Shown here piece after piece: positions 6,460 to 27,953 of a stretch of DNA of 28,693 nt. The stretch is from positions 1 through 28,693 of the IMG/VR virus record IMGVR_UViG_3300049846_000816; one strand, written 5' to 3'. The stretch comes from a virus. The first letter of the stretch is position 1, and each line of letters starts with the position of its first letter. The notes below the pieces were generated by a model that was not told where the DNA came from, searched no databases, and saw only the letters and a list, made by a program, of their open reading frames with translations. The translations under genes and the position numbers were made by a program.

Positions 6460-6736
6460 CGGGTTCTTGGTCCTTGGCGGTGGTGGTGGCTTCACGCTGC
6501 TGCTGGAGCAGCGCCATTCGGAGACCCTCCACGACGTTGGCCGCGCCGGCTGCCATCCAGACGCGCCGCTCGTTCCACGACGGGTCGGGGCAGCGGTTAG
6601 GGAACGCCTCTTGAAGGTATTTGACCAGCTCGGGCGTCACCGCCGGGCAGTCGAACAGGGGCTCAGGCATGAGACCTATAGGGTCTTGGAGGATGGCGGG
6701 CATGGGGCGGAAGTCGGCCGTGTACTTGACCATCAT
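6371..6736 (-). CDS. Small pre-portal protein of unknown function with chimeric N-terminus
   Basis: A 121-residue protein if started at the first ATG after the promoter (6736); 99 residues from ATG 6670. The conserved-looking core is MPEPLFDCPAVTPELVKYLQ, then EAFPNRCPDPSWNERRVWMA, a short acidic/aromatic module seen in small pre-portal proteins of podoviruses. The extra N-terminal part (MVKYTADFRP) is a near-exact in-frame copy of part of endonuclease I, and the start region is duplicated (see repeats). Both ATG codons are preceded by the same CCTATAGGTCTC. ATG 6670 is probably the ancestral start. It is the first gene from the promoter at 6771-6788. Function not known. Confidence 0.6.
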   Translation of the reverse strand: MMVKYTADFRPMPAILQDPIGLMPEPLFDCPAVTPELVKYLQEAFPNRCPDPSWNERRVWMAAGAANVVEGLRMALLQQQREATTTAKDQEPDVLLLPADEGARSAAGASNRIPEGPGNRS

Positions 6737-6762: not shown

Positions 6763-6770
6763 AGGGGATG

Positions 6771-6788
6771 CGATAGTGCAACCTAATC
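6771..6788 (-). promoter_or_regulatory. Phage RNA polymerase promoter, structural operon
   Basis: Minus-strand sequence GATTAGGTTGCACTATCG, with +1 expected at the final G. It matches the other four copies except at the first base and at one base near the start site (T for A). By alignment with SP6 (ATTTAGGTGACACTATAG) it is the most SP6-like copy around -2. A terminator lies directly upstream (6790-6829). It drives the pre-portal, portal, scaffold, holin and capsid genes. Confidence 0.9.
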
Positions 6789-14113: not shown

Positions 14114-14168
14114 GCTGTGTGTTCCTTTCCCGAAGTGGGATGCTAAGAAGCTGGAAACGGTGGTTAGG

Positions 14169-14186
14169 CGTTAGTGCAACCTAATC
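14169..14186 (-). promoter_or_regulatory. Phage RNA polymerase promoter, HTH / replication unit
   Basis: Minus-strand GATTAGGTTGCACTAACG: identical to the consensus except for the first base. +1 is expected at the last G (14169). An 11-bp hairpin abuts it upstream (14185-14212). Confidence 0.92.
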
Positions 14187-14212
14187 CCCCGCCGGTGGCG
14201 TCCGACGGGGGA
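14185..14212 (-). terminator. Strong hairpin abutting promoter (possible terminator without T-tract)
   Basis: Minus strand: 11-bp stem TCCCCCGTCGG / CCGGCGGGGGA (one G-T pair) with a 6-nt loop. It is followed at once by the promoter sequence TTAGGTTGC rather than a T-tract. It may slow incoming polymerase or protect a 3' end; as a terminator it is only plausible. Confidence 0.5.
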
Positions 14213-18233: not shown

Positions 18234-18265
18234 ACGGGCCTCCTGTGTGAGCGTTTAGGGATAGG

Positions 18266-18283
18266 CGTTAGTGCAACCTAATT
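18266..18283 (-). promoter_or_regulatory. Phage RNA polymerase promoter, middle genes
   Basis: Exact consensus AATTAGGTTGCACTAACG on the minus strand. The stop codon TAG of the small upstream gene (18278-18469) lies inside it. Drives the operon from 18233 to 14222, including SSB, endonuclease I and amidase. Confidence 0.95.
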
Positions 18284-18469
18284 GGGTCGCCGGGCCGTCC
18301 TCGACGCGACGTCGAGCCTCTTAGCCAGCTCTCTAAGCAGGGCGGCCAAGCGCGTCTGTCCCAGCGTGTCGACGAGAGCGGCGTGCTGATGCGCGACGCG
18401 GATGAGAGAGGCCGTAGGGAACTCGGCGGGGTGAGGAGCGACGGTCTCGGGTTTTATCACACGCTTCAT
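18278..18469 (-). CDS. Hypothetical protein, 63 residues, after RNA polymerase
   Basis: MKRVIKPETVAPHPAEFPTA, then SLIRVAHQHAALVDTLGQTR, then LAALLRELAKRLDVASRTAR. A GGAG element lies about ten bases before the ATG, 27 nt after the polymerase stop. Mostly helical and basic. Its final codons Asn-stop (AAT TAG) are the first bases of the next promoter. Function unknown. Confidence 0.65.
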   Translation of the reverse strand: MKRVIKPETVAPHPAEFPTASLIRVAHQHAALVDTLGQTRLAALLRELAKRLDVASRTARRPN

Positions 18470-18495: not shown

Positions 18496-20967
18496 TTAGG
18501 CGAAGAAGAAATCGCTCCGGAGAACCTGGCTCAGGTCCAGATCGCCAGAAGCGGGGACAGGCGCGAGCTTCTTGCGAGCGGCGTCGTCGAGCATCTCCTC
18601 GATCCCGGCGCGGAATTGCGAGAGCACGTCGTGCTCGCTGTAGAGGTCCACGAAGGCGTGGCGCAGGCACTTCCCGAGCATCTCGGTGTCGGCGGCCAGC
18701 GTGCCGTAGCTGTCGTGGATCATGGCGAACGACGTGATGCCGTTCTCCGTGGCGATGTTGACGCAGGACTGAAGCGCCGACGCGTCCATCGAGTGGACGA
18801 AGTTCGGAGCGATGGCGGTCACCTGCCTGGCCGCGTCGATCTTAGTCGTCTCAGGGCGCAGCGTGAGGTAGACCAACTCGCCGAATATCTTCGTCTTGAT
18901 GCGGACGGTGTCGACCTCCTTGTACGCCTGCTGCACACGGAAGCCCGTGGGCGTGCGCCAGTTGATCGGCAGGCCCGTCTTGCCGGCGAGCCGGGCGCAG
19001 CCTTGCAGCCACGCCATGGCTTCCTTGGCCTTCACCACGACGTCGCTGATCGAGGACCAGACGTGCTTCGCGAGGAAGTGGAGCGCGGCGTTGTGCGCCT
19101 TGCGGTCCCCCTCCCACGGGTCCTTGGCCCCCGTCTCGATCGCCTCACGCACCGCCTCGCCGACGTACTCCTTGCAGCTCATGTACGTACCGCCGTAGGG
19201 CAGCACCATGACCGAGCGCTTCGTGATCTTGCGCGTGACGCCGAAGTCGATCCACCGCTGCGCCGTGTCCGCACCGTCTCCACCTGAGGAGGCGATAAGA
19301 CGCAGCTTGTCCAGAGCCACCCTCGCGACCTCGCCGTAGATGTCGCTGGGCTTGTCGCTGGGGATCAGGTTGACCGCCTTGCCGCCGACCGGGTCGCGCA
19401 GCATGGCGCTGTAGTGCTGGATGCCGTTGCACGAACCGTCGAGCGCGATGGCGAGCCGCGACACGAAGTCGAAGCCCTGCTCGACGAAGCCCAGCCACTC
19501 GAAACAGAACGCGAGGAAACACCACGGGCTATCTGCGTCCTGCCAGAAGTTGCACGACAGAGGATCGCGTGCGCACGCGAGGATCAGCCCTTGGTTGGCC
19601 TCGACCCACGCGATGCGATCTTCGAGGCTCGCCTTGTCGTAGCCGTAGGTGTTCGCGCCGTGGATCGCCAGCCAGCCGGCGGCCATCTCGTCGCCCAGCG
19701 GCTTGCCCTCGGCGAAGTGCAGGAGACCCTTGGCGAGGTCGCCTCCCTGCGGGCTGAGGAACGACGGGATCGAATAGATGCGACCCCGGAAGTCCATGCT
19801 GTGCGGGAAGTAGATCGCCTTCTCAGGGGCGAACCGCTCGGCGGTCTGCAGGATCGAGCAGGTCAGGTGCCGGCGGCTCTCGCTGCGGGCGTTGCGGGCG
19901 TGGGCTTCCGAGGTCGCTCCCTTCCACTCCTTGAACTCGGCCTTCTGCGCCTCGGTCATCTCGCCGGGCTTCAGTTCAGGCGTCAGCCACGCCGGCTTCG
20001 GCGGAAGCTCCGCGCCAACGCGGGAGGGAAGCACGGAGCCGAGGCCCAGCTCCTTCTTCCACATGCAGTCGGCGACCTCCAGCACGCGACGATTCACCGC
20101 CCACGCTGTGGCCTGCACCGCGTTGATCGCGGCGTAGACCTCGGGCATCTCGGTGTTGAATAGCTCGTCGATGTAGCCGGTCGAGCGGGTCTTCACCAGC
20201 GGCTCGCGCCGCACAGCGTTCGTCCAGTAGCCGCCACTCAGCGGGGACGTCCAAGGCTTCGGCGGGATGACGCAAGGGAGGTACACAGGGCACAGCAGGG
20301 CGTGCCTGGCGTGCGCCTTCTCGAACCACTCCAGCGTCTTCGCGGTGCCGCGAACGATCAGCCTTGAGCTCGCGCTCGGGACCACCTCCGACAGTCCCGT
20401 CGCCTCGACGAACAGCTCGATCAGCTTGACGCCCAGGTTGATCGTGTCGGCCACGGGCCACTGCTCCCACGCCAAGCCGTTGCGGTTCATCTGGAACACG
20501 AGCACGCGCCGCCGGTGGCGGGTGTTCGTCGTCTTCTCCAGCGACCGCTCGGTCATCTTGTAGCCGTCCGCAGCGACCTGCTCGAAGGTGCGGAAGCGGA
20601 CCTCGTCCTCGATCGCCATGCCAACACGGTTCGCCAAGGTCTGCAGCATGATCGAACTCGACATCTTGTCGAGGATCACGCGGGCGGTCAGGTAGGCGGC
20701 GGTCTCAGGGTCGACGCCCTCAAGGTACTTCACGGCCTTGTGCCGGCGCCCGGCCTTGCCCGTGTTGGCCGCCTCGACGAACTCGCGGATGGCCTTGGCG
20801 GTCGGCTCGATGGCGGCCTTGAGCATGCGAAGGCCGGCGGGAACCCGGGACTCCTGCCCGTTCTCCTGCGCCTTGAGGAGAGCCTTCTTGTAGCTCTCGA
20901 CGCCCTTCGAGGTCATCTCGCGCTCCAGCTCTGCCTGTCTCTCGAACTCGGGGTGCTGCTGCTGCAT
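18496..20967 (-). CDS. Single-subunit DNA-dependent RNA polymerase (T7 gp1-like)
   Basis: Transcribes phage genes from the specific promoters listed here. 823 residues (T7 883). Catalytic residues: D510 in ALDGSCNGIQHYSAMLRD (motif A), K583 and Y591 in KITKRSVMVLPYGG (motif B; T7 K631, Y639), H751-D752 in AMIHDSYG (motif C). The C-terminus ends FFFA, compared with FAFA in T7. The specificity loop, about residues 686-706 (VRIKTKIFGELVYLTLR), differs from T7 as expected for a different promoter. AGGAG lies six bases before the ATG. A phage promoter 46 nt upstream and a terminator behind that mean the gene is at least partly self-transcribed. Confidence 0.98.
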   Translation of the reverse strand: MQQQHPEFERQAELEREMTSKGVESYKKALLKAQENGQESRVPAGLRMLKAAIEPTAKAIREFVEAANTGKAGRRHKAVKYLEGVDPETAAYLTARVILDKMSSSIMLQTLANRVGMAIEDEVRFRTFEQVAADGYKMTERSLEKTTNTRHRRRVLVFQMNRNGLAWEQWPVADTINLGVKLIELFVEATGLSEVVPSASSRLIVRGTAKTLEWFEKAHARHALLCPVYLPCVIPPKPWTSPLSGGYWTNAVRREPLVKTRSTGYIDELFNTEMPEVYAAINAVQATAWAVNRRVLEVADCMWKKELGLGSVLPSRVGAELPPKPAWLTPELKPGEMTEAQKAEFKEWKGATSEAHARNARSESRRHLTCSILQTAERFAPEKAIYFPHSMDFRGRIYSIPSFLSPQGGDLAKGLLHFAEGKPLGDEMAAGWLAIHGANTYGYDKASLEDRIAWVEANQGLILACARDPLSCNFWQDADSPWCFLAFCFEWLGFVEQGFDFVSRLAIALDGSCNGIQHYSAMLRDPVGGKAVNLIPSDKPSDIYGEVARVALDKLRLIASSGGDGADTAQRWIDFGVTRKITKRSVMVLPYGGTYMSCKEYVGEAVREAIETGAKDPWEGDRKAHNAALHFLAKHVWSSISDVVVKAKEAMAWLQGCARLAGKTGLPINWRTPTGFRVQQAYKEVDTVRIKTKIFGELVYLTLRPETTKIDAARQVTAIAPNFVHSMDASALQSCVNIATENGITSFAMIHDSYGTLAADTEMLGKCLRHAFVDLYSEHDVLSQFRAGIEEMLDDAARKKLAPVPASGDLDLSQVLRSDFFFA

Positions 20968-20985: not shown

Positions 20986-21031
20986 CCTATAGGGAGGCAG
21001 GGGGCGCATAGGCGTTAGTGCAACCTAATTG
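20986..21031 (-). repeat. Promoter-leader repeat, copy 1
   Basis: About 46 nt nearly identical to 27907-27953, with about three substitutions and one inserted G. It covers the promoter, a GCGCCCCC run and the palindromic CCTATAGG. A related CCTATAGG also follows the promoter at 6771-6788. Confidence 0.9.
21013..21030 (-). promoter_or_regulatory. Phage RNA polymerase promoter upstream of its own polymerase gene
   Basis: Exact consensus AATTAGGTTGCACTAACG on the minus strand, +1 at 21013. The polymerase ATG is at 20967. The transcribed leader contains CCTATAGGT and the gene's AGGAG. The promoter plus leader (20986-21031) is nearly repeated at 27907-27953. Confidence 0.95.
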
Positions 21032-21093
21032 GTCACGCCTTTGGGCACGCCCGCCTGTCGGGCACACAATCCCCTCCGATGGTGGAGAGGCCG

Positions 21094-21123
21094 TGAAAAA
21101 GGAAAGGCCCCTCTCGGGGGCCT
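21094..21123 (-). terminator. Intrinsic terminator after integrase/att
   Basis: Minus strand: 7-bp perfect stem AGGCCCC / GGGGCCT with a 5-nt loop (plus 21105-21111 and 21117-21123), then TTTCCTTTTT. It should stop transcripts from the integrase operon before the polymerase promoter. Confidence 0.9.
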
Positions 21124-21173
21124 AGGAATTTCCGCGACTTAGGGGGCGTCTCCGGTATCGGAGCGGGTTCCTA

Positions 21174-21217
21174 GCGGATTTTAAGTCCGCCACGTCTACC
21201 TGTTTCGTCAAGCCCCT
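21174..21217 (-). other. attP-like fragment of tRNA-Leu(UAA)
   Basis: Minus strand: a D-arm ACG-AAACAGGTAGA-CGT (21208-21192), one linking base, then a perfect anticodon arm GCGGA-CTTAAAA-TCCGC (21190-21174) with anticodon TAA, the leucine UUA-reading tRNA. GGTAGACG is the typical Leu D-loop. The downstream half does not fold into a normal variable arm and T-arm (no GTTCGA-type loop), so this is a fragment, not a working tRNA gene. Integrase-bearing T7-like phages such as cyanophage P-SSP7 carry a comparable tRNA-Leu-matching stretch beside int; the integrase gene ends 25 nt upstream here. The anticodon-arm inverted repeat is the likely crossover core. Confidence 0.8.
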
Positions 21218-21241
21218 CAAGCGTTCTTCGCGGGCACGCGG

Positions 21242-22276
21242 TCACGCCGCGACCAGTTTGGGCACAGGTTTGGGCACAACGCCAGCCCCGGGCTCCAGAA
21301 GGGACGCCATACCCTCCAGATCGGTCGGCGACAGGTGCCGGTAGCGCAGCGTGGTGGTGAACGAGCGGTGGCCCATCCAGATCATCACGCGCGACAGGTC
21401 GACGCCGGCCCGCACGAGGCGGGTGCAGCAGGTGTGCCTGAGGGTGTGGATCACCACGTCCTCGATCCCGGTGTGGGCGCACGCCTTGGTGAAGCTGTCG
21501 CGGAAGCGCCACGAGTTGATGCCATGCCACGGCCCGCCGGCCTGGCCGCGCTGTCGCTCGACGGCGGCGTGCGCCCGATCGGTGAGCGGGATCGTGCGCG
21601 GCTTGCCGCCCTTGGTGAACCAGTAGGTCACCTTGCGCCCGTTGTAGGCGGTCCACAGGGACGCGTGGCCCTCGCTCTCCCAGCGGCAGCCGGTGTCGAT
21701 CAGGTACTCGACGAAGTCGGCGTAGAGGTGCTCGCCCCATAGGCGCAGCGTGGCGAGGATCGCCCGCTCCTCGGCAGGCGAGACCTCGCGCTCCCTGCCC
21801 TGCGGCTCGGTGCGCCGGGAGAAGTGCGGCACGGTCTCGATCAGCCCGCGCTTGTGCGCGTAGCGGAGCAGCTTCGACAGCGCCGCCAGCTTGCGGTTGA
21901 TGGTGCCGTTCGCGTTTCCGGCGTCGATCAGGGCGCGGATGTAGCGGTCGACCTCGCTCGTGGTGATCGCCGAGGCGAGCACGTTCGCGCCGAAGAAGTC
22001 CACCGCGCACTGCCCGTTGCGGATCAGCGAGGCGCTGGCCCGCGCGTCGCGCCATTCCATGGTGGCGACCTGCCGCTGCAAGGCGCCCATGGTGATGCCC
22101 TTGGCGGCCTGGCCGGGCGCGGCCGAGGGAAGGGGCCTGCCTTCCTCGTCGGCTAGCTTCATCGCCGCCTCCCACGCGAGGGCTTGGGCCTCGGTAGGGA
22201 AGCCGCCGCGCCTTTTGCGGCTGCCGTCTCGCAGGCGCACGTCGCCCTGCCAGCCGTCGCCACGAAGTCTCGCCAT
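21242..22276 (-). CDS. Tyrosine integrase (site-specific recombinase)
   Basis: Catalyses integration between attP and a host attB. 344 residues. N-terminal arm/SAM-like region with GALQRQVATMEWRDARASASL and TINRKLAALSKLLRYAHKRG. The catalytic domain has all expected residues: R198 (DTGCRWES), K222/K225 (TKGGKPRTIPL), H277-x2-R280 (HTLRHTCCTRL), H303 (MGHRSF) and nucleophile Y312 (TLRYRHL). It appears complete and active. The Shine-Dalgarno AGAGGAGG lies six bases before the ATG, 13 nt after the MarR-like gene. Lytic T7-like phages lack an integrase; its presence implies a temperate or recently temperate phage. Confidence 0.95.
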   Translation of the reverse strand: MARLRGDGWQGDVRLRDGSRKRRGGFPTEAQALAWEAAMKLADEEGRPLPSAAPGQAAKGITMGALQRQVATMEWRDARASASLIRNGQCAVDFFGANVLASAITTSEVDRYIRALIDAGNANGTINRKLAALSKLLRYAHKRGLIETVPHFSRRTEPQGREREVSPAEERAILATLRLWGEHLYADFVEYLIDTGCRWESEGHASLWTAYNGRKVTYWFTKGGKPRTIPLTDRAHAAVERQRGQAGGPWHGINSWRFRDSFTKACAHTGIEDVVIHTLRHTCCTRLVRAGVDLSRVMIWMGHRSFTTTLRYRHLSPTDLEGMASLLEPGAGVVPKPVPKLVAA

Positions 22277-22289
22277 GCTGCGCCTCCTC

Positions 22290-22616
22290 TCAGTTCACCA
22301 GTTGCGAGATGCGCCGCGTGAGTGCGGCACCCTTGCCGGTCAACCGTACGCGCTTGTAGCGCCGATCGGCCGGGTCCTCGTACGCCTCGACCACGTCGGC
22401 CCCGTCCTTGCCGAGGCGGTGGTGCTTCGACAAGGCGGCGACGTTGCGCGACGTGCTCGACGATGCGAGGCCCAGCCTGTTCTGCAGGTCTCGCATCGAG
22501 ATGTCGGGCTCGTCCGCGATGATCAGGAACGTCAGCACGGTCTGTGCCGGCATCTCCGGGTCAATCGCGCGGAGCATTTCCATCAGTTGGATCAGCCTCC
22601 CTAATCCTTTGGGCAT
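22290..22616 (-). CDS. MarR-like winged-helix transcriptional regulator
   Basis: 108 residues. Winged-helix core: TVLTFLIIADEPDISMRDLQ, then NRLGLASSSTSRNVAALSKH (recognition helix around SSSTSRNVAAL), then a wing ending DRRYKRVRLTGKGAALTRRI (the D-x-R...V.LT.KG signature of MarR proteins). AAGGAG lies seven bases before the ATG. It is transcribed directly ahead of the integrase, and no CI- or Cro-like repressor is visible, so it is the best candidate for control of integration or lysogeny (inference). Known MarR proteins usually bind palindromes near their own promoter; no operator can be fixed here. Confidence 0.85.
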   Translation of the reverse strand: MPKGLGRLIQLMEMLRAIDPEMPAQTVLTFLIIADEPDISMRDLQNRLGLASSSTSRNVAALSKHHRLGKDGADVVEAYEDPADRRYKRVRLTGKGAALTRRISQLVN

Positions 22617-22800
22617 CGTCGTTCTCCTTCCCGCGCCGCGCCCGTGGCCCCACCCACGACGCGATCACCTGTAACCGCCAGAAGGCGGCCTCGAAATCGC
22701 GCCCGTCCCGTAGCATATACGCAAGGGGAGCGCCATCGACACACCGGCGGGTCTCGATCACCAGATCGAGCCGCCCTACCGCAACGCTAAACAGGATCAT
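22561..22800 (-). CDS. Hypothetical protein, 79 residues, upstream of MarR-like gene
   Basis: MILFSVAVGRLDLVIETRRC ... ADPTDGNAPRD. The first two thirds have normal protein character (FSVAVGRLDLVIETRR, FEAAFWRLQVIASW); the C-terminus is charged and overlaps the MarR-like gene by 56 nt. AGGAG is rather far upstream (about 15 bases). Possibly the first gene of the MarR-integrase operon. Not recognised. Confidence 0.5.
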   Translation of the reverse strand: MILFSVAVGRLDLVIETRRCVDGAPLAYMLRDGRDFEAAFWRLQVIASWVGPRARRGKENDDAQRIREADPTDGNAPRD

Positions 22801-22889
22801 GATGAAACAGCTTTCTCCTATGGGAGTAAATAGGCCACGCCCTCTACCAAAACGGCGGTAGGAAGGTCAACGGGTTCGTCAGCCTCGCG
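22801..22889 (-). promoter_or_regulatory. Gap upstream of MarR-integrase operon with small hairpins
   Basis: An 89-nt gap, AT-richer than its surroundings. It contains CTACC-(8 nt)-GGTAG at 22844-22861 and a 4-bp CTCC/GGAG repeat at 22815-22826. It is the natural place for a promoter and operator of the integrase operon, but no clear -35/-10 pair or MarR-type palindrome can be named. Confidence 0.3.
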
Positions 22890-27906: not shown

Positions 27907-27953
27907 CCTATAGGGATGCAGGGGGGCGCTTATGCGTTAGTGCAACCTAATTG
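27907..27953 (-). repeat. Promoter-leader repeat, copy 2
   Basis: Nearly identical to 20986-21031; see that entry. The shared part runs from the palindrome CCTATAGG through GCGCCCCC to the promoter. Confidence 0.9.
27935..27952 (-). promoter_or_regulatory. Phage RNA polymerase promoter after terminase (phiOR-like)
   Basis: Exact consensus AATTAGGTTGCACTAACG on the minus strand. It reads from the terminase end into the gene-poor region, as phiOR does next to the right end of T7, where transcription is linked to replication and packaging. It could also carry phage-polymerase transcription into the early genes on concatemers. Confidence 0.93.

Follow-up and report, generated by a model that had tools for sequence, protein, structure and literature searches.

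A MarR-like gene, an integrase and a tRNA-Leu(UAA) attP as a probable integration and lysogeny module beside the RNA polymerase gene of a T7-like phage

How could a T7-like phage integrate at a host tRNA gene and keep its own RNA polymerase silent afterward? The question is raised by a 28,693-base virus record, IMGVR_UViG_3300049846_000816, which we analyzed over its whole length (the window) and which has a GC content of 65%. Its portal, scaffold, capsid, tail, DNA polymerase, primase-helicase, ssDNA-binding, endonuclease and terminase families, together with a single-subunit RNA polymerase, mark the window by gene content as a T7-like phage. On the minus strand, it carries in order a MarR-like gene, an integrase, the 5′ half of a tRNA-Leu(UAA), a terminator-like hairpin, a phage promoter and the RNA polymerase gene. 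A preliminary description had recognized this region as a temperate-type module in a T7-like phage, with a tRNA-Leu(UAA) attP that separates the integrase gene from that of the RNA polymerase, and we arrive at the same assignment. Of the limits it gave, the end at 22616 stands, whereas the start at 21031 falls inside the phage promoter and the full module extends from ~ 21009 to 22616. The left end of the contig (position 1) lies inside a tail protein (profile positions 1–503 of 793), and at the right end (28693), the terminase large subunit is represented by its C-terminal part alone, followed by early genes. Part of the phage genome is thus missing from the window. In the T7 gene order, the missing segment is the one between the tail protein and the terminase. 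Because the contig crosses from the terminase into the early genes, its assembly probably drew on circular or concatemeric DNA, and since integrase, core and RNA polymerase are contiguous, this copy of the phage was not integrated at this site.

The tyrosine integrase (21242–22276, minus strand) is complete, as previously described, with 344 aa and matches to PF00589 (E = 5e-16) and phrog_1 (E = 8e-50), and it starts 13 nt past the MarR stop codon. Beyond its 3′ end lie 44 nt (21174–21217, minus strand) that form the 5′ half of a tRNA-Leu(UAA), composed of an acceptor-like strand AGGGGCT, the dinucleotide TG, a D-arm (21192–21208) and an anticodon arm (21174–21190). The fragment had been noted before as a D-arm plus anticodon arm; it covers the whole 5′ half. 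A 34-nt string spanning the D-arm and anticodon arm matched true tRNA-Leu(UAA) genes in 10 of 563 genomes with 2–3 mismatches, and the reversed string had no match in the same 563 genomes. ARAGORN called a tRNA-Leu(UAA) when the 5′ half was completed by an artificial 3′ half whose acceptor is complementary to it; with the 3′ halves of two example hosts, it called no tRNA, and the acceptor strand AGGGGCT is unusual. Neither ARAGORN nor Rfam found a complete tRNA in the 28.7-kb window, from which part of the genome is missing. The core of strand exchange is probably the anticodon loop, CTTAAAATC.

Repeats of the kind expected for integrase arm-type sites flank this core on both sides. The sequence GTGCCCAAA occurs in three exact copies in the window where 0.10 are expected. 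Two of them make up the P arm within the 3′ end of the integrase gene (21257–21277, minus strand; single sites at 21269–21277 and 21257–21265). The third belongs to the P′ arm (21028–21065, minus strand), which with weaker copies included comprises GTGCCCGAC at 21057–21065, GTGCCCAAA at 21040–21048 and GTGACCAAT at 21028–21036, located +123, +140 and +152 from the core, respectively. The +152 site overlaps the phage promoter of the RNA polymerase gene by 4 nt. In the closest relative (locus L165), a repeat of its own stands at +124, +140 and +151, and in two further relatives (L038 and L056), a different repeat stands at +126, +142 and +155. The repeat sequence therefore varies between phages and the spacing is kept, as expected of Int arm sites. 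On the integrase side, the sites are at −89 and −77 in the window vs. −144 to −122 in L165, where a complete tRNA intervenes. Because arm-type repeats flank the tRNA core and the spacing on the polymerase side is common to relatives, the attP of this phage very probably works, as far as can be judged from sequence comparison. We infer that a host tRNA-Leu(UAA) is the partner with which its Int recombines the core in the anticodon loop, and the module is, with little doubt, real and probably functional for integration.

On the other side of the core is the gene for a T7-like single-subunit RNA polymerase of 823 aa (18496–20967, minus strand; PF00940, E = 4e-105), whose start is 206 nt downstream of the tRNA fragment. 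Directly before it is a promoter of the T3/T7 type, CAATTAGGTTGCACTAACGCCTA (21009–21031, minus strand), so that the polymerase gene has its own phage promoter. Four copies of this sequence were found with up to three mismatches, the other three at 18262–18284, 14165–14187 and 27931–27953, and none in shuffled sequence; there is a weaker copy at 6770–6786, and one of these further copies lies between the terminase and the early genes. In its length and its CACTAA element, the promoter resembles that of T3. The interval between core and RNA polymerase also contains an intrinsic terminator-like hairpin (21105–21123, minus strand; z = −2.45), found in a scan that by itself is at chance level (1 found vs. 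1.1 expected). An 8-bp palindrome, CCTATAGG (20986–20993, no strand assigned), lies ~ 20 nt downstream of the presumed start of the RNA polymerase promoter. It occurs four times in the window (at 6675, 6741, 20986 and 27907) where 0.06 copies are expected, and three of the four are 20–25 nt downstream of phage promoters; because two of the four are at or in a coding start, we regard it as a candidate operator only. A near-copy, CTCCCATAGGAG, lies shortly before the MarR operon, around 22817–22828.

The gene at the head of the module (22290–22616, minus strand) encodes a protein of 108 aa that is homologous to P-SSP7 gp0.7 and LUZ100 gp10. It matches phrog_9665, annotated as "transcriptional regulator" (E = 3e-31), with HTH_27 above and MarR_2 below the cut-off, and a profile search of the PDB matched it to MarR/SlyA proteins. 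Its AlphaFold model has a pLDDT of 92.5, and the top 50 PDB entries in the fold comparison are mostly MarR-family proteins. The protein is thus, as modeled, a winged helix-turn-helix protein of the MarR fold, in line with its first description as a MarR-type regulator upstream of the integrase. It is shorter than a usual MarR protein, which has ~ 140 aa and dimerization helices at both the N- and the C-terminus, and of these its model has a final helix only (residues 94–107). The family is present in 46 phage records, chiefly those of pelagiphages and cyanophages, LUZ100 and a Mesorhizobium phage. Upstream of the MarR-like gene, the ORF list has a small ORF of 79 aa (22561–22800, minus strand) that family searches assigned to no known family, and directly upstream of this ORF is the presumed promoter region (22801–22889). 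A sigma-70 promoter scan for the MarR-integrase operon gave no hit.

That the MarR-like protein represses the polymerase promoter is plausible, and we would give it even odds. A search for an operator common to the upstream regions of MarR and RNA polymerase found none beyond shuffles in any of 27 loci. The preliminary description had suggested that the protein could be a repressor-like switch; a MarR protein as lysis/lysogeny repressor had already been proposed in the passage of PMC10134795 that cites Boeckman 2022, and for the protein of the window, such a role stays an inferred one. The view that a MarR gene in the operon is less usual did not hold up. An integrase is located upstream of the RNA polymerase in 38 of 89 loci, and in 34 of these 38, a MarR gene stands directly before it, mostly overlapping it or a few nt away; two of the four loci without MarR are cut by a contig end, and the loci are partly non-independent, several contigs being near-identical. 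The same arrangement is seen in P-SSP7, HTVC109P, HTVC019P and LUZ100.

Nine genomes have the RNA polymerase and a MarR homologue ~ 40 kb apart on one contig, at opposite ends of a prophage. In most of them, att repeats fall within genes for tRNA-Leu(UAG), -Cys, -His, -Lys or -Leu(UAA), and throughout the group this puts the attP on the stretch that links integrase and RNA polymerase. Integration at such an attP parts the polymerase from the MarR-integrase operon. It also sets the polymerase behind the 5′ half of the host tRNA, with a terminator-like hairpin between the two in 20 of 30 loci (a raw count with no shuffle baseline).

We estimate at about 0.7 the probability that the locus serves a T7-like phage, temperate now or in the past, as its module for integration and lysogeny, and that the MarR-like protein holds the polymerase promoter off. 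Int would join the anticodon-loop core to the host tRNA-Leu(UAA), and directly behind the integrase gene, a tRNA would be reassembled from the phage 5′ half and the host 3′ half. The same crossover would take the RNA polymerase gene out of read-through from the MarR-integrase operon, leaving it behind the host tRNA promoter and insulated by the terminator, and the MarR-like protein, co-transcribed with the integrase, would silence the phage promoter that belongs to the polymerase gene itself. On excision, read-through would resume and set off the self-amplifying polymerase loop. Co-transcription of MarR and integrase has been shown in LUZ100, where the phage promoter before the RNA polymerase has also been mapped experimentally (PMC10134795), and according to the literature, integration of S-TIP37 needs both int and attP. 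Rebuilding of the tRNA next to the integrase gene from a phage half and a host 3′ half is the likeliest reading for this phage; the alternative is a complementing tRNA-Leu within the missing genome segment. A bolder version, which we think less likely than not, would make the attP itself the lysis-lysogeny switch: The crossover would cut the polymerase off from the MarR-integrase operon, the polymerase promoter shares 4 nt with an Int arm site, and the integrase locus would provide the tRNA-Leu(UAA) that is essential to the lysogen, rebuilt in this phage or complete in its relatives, so that the host would depend on the prophage.

The module might instead give occasional integration and not lysogeny, with a working integrase and attP and a MarR-like protein that serves in lytic growth only, as reported for T7-like cyanophages. 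P-SSP7 has been shown to integrate at tRNA-Leu and S-TIP37 integrates there as well, and no stable lysogens were found for S-TIP37 or obtained for LUZ100 (PMC10134795). The attP of the window is moreover closest in type to that of P-SSP7. Related modules are, however, present in ~ 40-kb prophages of Alphaproteobacteria, Stenotrophomonas and Paraburkholderia, which indicates that this type of module supports stable integration elsewhere, and we consider integration without lysogeny unlikely.

In three of the related prophages, the junctions could be resolved. They lie inside the host tRNA-Leu(UAA) gene of Xanthobacter sp. YC-JY1 (L092/L135; G009 C1, ~ 3060500–3104300), Rhodopseudomonas palustris XCP and Rhizobiales AFS048116 (L082/L137 and L093/L136 for the latter two genomes), and in each, the gene is cut at the anticodon loop CTTAAAATC. 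Joining the two flanks yields an intact tRNA-Leu(UAA), which is restored at neither of the two junctions and by neither host half alone, and in all three a complete tRNA-Leu(UAA) is located on the phage side. The preliminary description had suggested looking at tRNA-Leu(UAA) junctions in prophages; they could be resolved in these three relatives, but no prophage of the phage itself was found in searches of genomes and viral contigs with the tRNA fragment or in an integrase scan. For UAA, the hits of the pattern search in each genome were limited to the broken half and the tRNA on the phage side, plus one CAA tRNA. Allowing one mismatch, which a divergent copy could escape, it found no other intact UAA tRNA in the three genomes, of which only that of YC-JY1 is complete. 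A 24-bp repeat in R. palustris, considered as a core restored from the 5′ end of the phage, was rejected; it reflects how similar the phage tRNA is to the host tRNA that was split, and the anticodon loop is where the true core lies.

It therefore looks, from the junctions, as if some relatives break the host's only copy of an essential tRNA-Leu(UAA) and supply their own. Temperate T7-like phages of Alphaproteobacteria would then appear to use tRNA-dependent lysogeny, a mode defined in actinobacteriophages; how far it extends beyond them called for investigation, according to its authors (Guerrero-Bustamante and Hatfull, 2024, PMC10865867). As in the actinobacteriophages, the core in the window's relatives is an anticodon-loop sequence of ~ 9 bp, the host tRNA is not rebuilt, and the phage carries a tRNA of the same isotype; the mode was described, however, for actinobacteriophages and not for T7-like phages, and the window itself is without a complete tRNA. 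Since one Lactobacillus prophage has already been cited for it (PMC10865867), the T7-like case is an extension and not the first. The wider interest lies in this mode of lysogeny in the relatives. It would directly explain the tRNA-Leu beside the integrase in LUZ100, which its authors ascribed to imprecise excision (PMC10134795). If it holds, integration should kill the host once the phage tRNA-Leu is deleted, and curing of the prophage should require a spare tRNA-Leu(UAA).

In all 17 phage-like loci with a complete tRNA-Leu (among them L165, L004, L009, L013, L038, L056, L079, L111 from Pasto and L113 from LUZ100), the 7-nt anticodon loop of this tRNA recurs separately downstream of it, before the RNA polymerase. 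Recombination between the anticodon arm of such a tRNA and the adjacent core would give the arrangement of the window, and the tRNA half could thus be the remnant of a complete phage tRNA-Leu. Integration would in that case destroy the host tRNA, and lysogeny would be lost or would rely on a tRNA encoded in the segment missing from the sequence. The odd acceptor strand AGGGGCT and the missing part of the genome fit with such an origin, but the half is structurally intact, P-SSP7 and HTVC109P have a 5′ half of the same type, and P-SSP7 integrates with it, so we regard a remnant as improbable.

We also doubt that the MarR-like protein is an excisionase (recombination directionality factor) that binds attP and steers Int to excision, or that it combines both roles like proteins of the Cox/Apl type: Small winged-helix proteins beside an integrase are often excisionases, the pairing with the integrase is tight (34 of 38 loci) and the two genes move as a unit (in cyanophage SS120-1, L175, the pair is downstream of the RNA polymerase and not upstream), yet P-SSP2 has an intact MarR gene despite an integrase split over two frames, the fold comparison returns MarR repressors, and in Mesorhizobium escarrei (L138:3166–4277), the MarR homologue stays with the T7-like RNA polymerase although a serine recombinase (PF00239), placed between the two, replaces the tyrosine integrase, which favors a regulator.

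An integration and lysogeny module with MarR-like control, our preferred reading, can be set beside several known systems, and cassettes for tRNA-Leu integration with a regulator beside the integrase are already known in T7-like phages. LUZ100 (PMC10134795) is, like the window, T7-like, with a MarR-like gene followed by a tyrosine integrase, a terminator and a phage promoter of its own before the RNA polymerase, and its integrase gene is followed by a core formed by the anticodon loop of tRNA-Leu(UAA). Unlike the window, it carries a complete tRNA-Leu(UAA) on the opposite strand between MarR and integrase and has a different promoter sequence, and the proteins are 31–44% identical. Rhizobium phage Pasto has the closest integrase among phage records (39%) and the same order of MarR, integrase and RNA polymerase, but several genes and a complete tRNA-Leu(UAA) lie between its integrase and RNA polymerase. 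That order is also the one given for the temperate T7-like phages of Boeckman et al (2022, Virology 568:86), as cited in PMC10134795. P-SSP7 and HTVC109P share with the window the order of MarR (gp0.7) and integrase, a 5′ half and anticodon loop of tRNA-Leu(UAA) in the orientation of the integrase, and no complete tRNA near it, and the integrase of S-TIP37 likewise goes with a tRNA-Leu attP, according to the published description. P-SSP7, S-TIP37 and HTVC109P are marine and AT-rich, in contrast to the window with its 65% GC and diverged sequence.

A plausible host with a tRNA-Leu(UAA) that matches the core exactly, as anticipated earlier, did not emerge. The exact 36-mer of the tRNA fragment had no match in the genome contigs of 84,980 species; its final T may lie outside the core, so the pattern was possibly one base too strict. 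The best host tRNA has 2 mismatches in 37 nt, and nothing better was found in 289 alphaproteobacteria, 274 gammaproteobacteria, the order of the best match or 398 Pseudomonadota. Viral contigs gave no match to a 29-mer of the fragment and no relative in an integrase scan. As a separate observation on gene content, the early region of the window includes a GP88-like gene (PF17338; 25969–26742), and a protein encoded upstream of MarR in the Mesorhizobium element (L138:733–1749) resembles it when the two are compared by eye.
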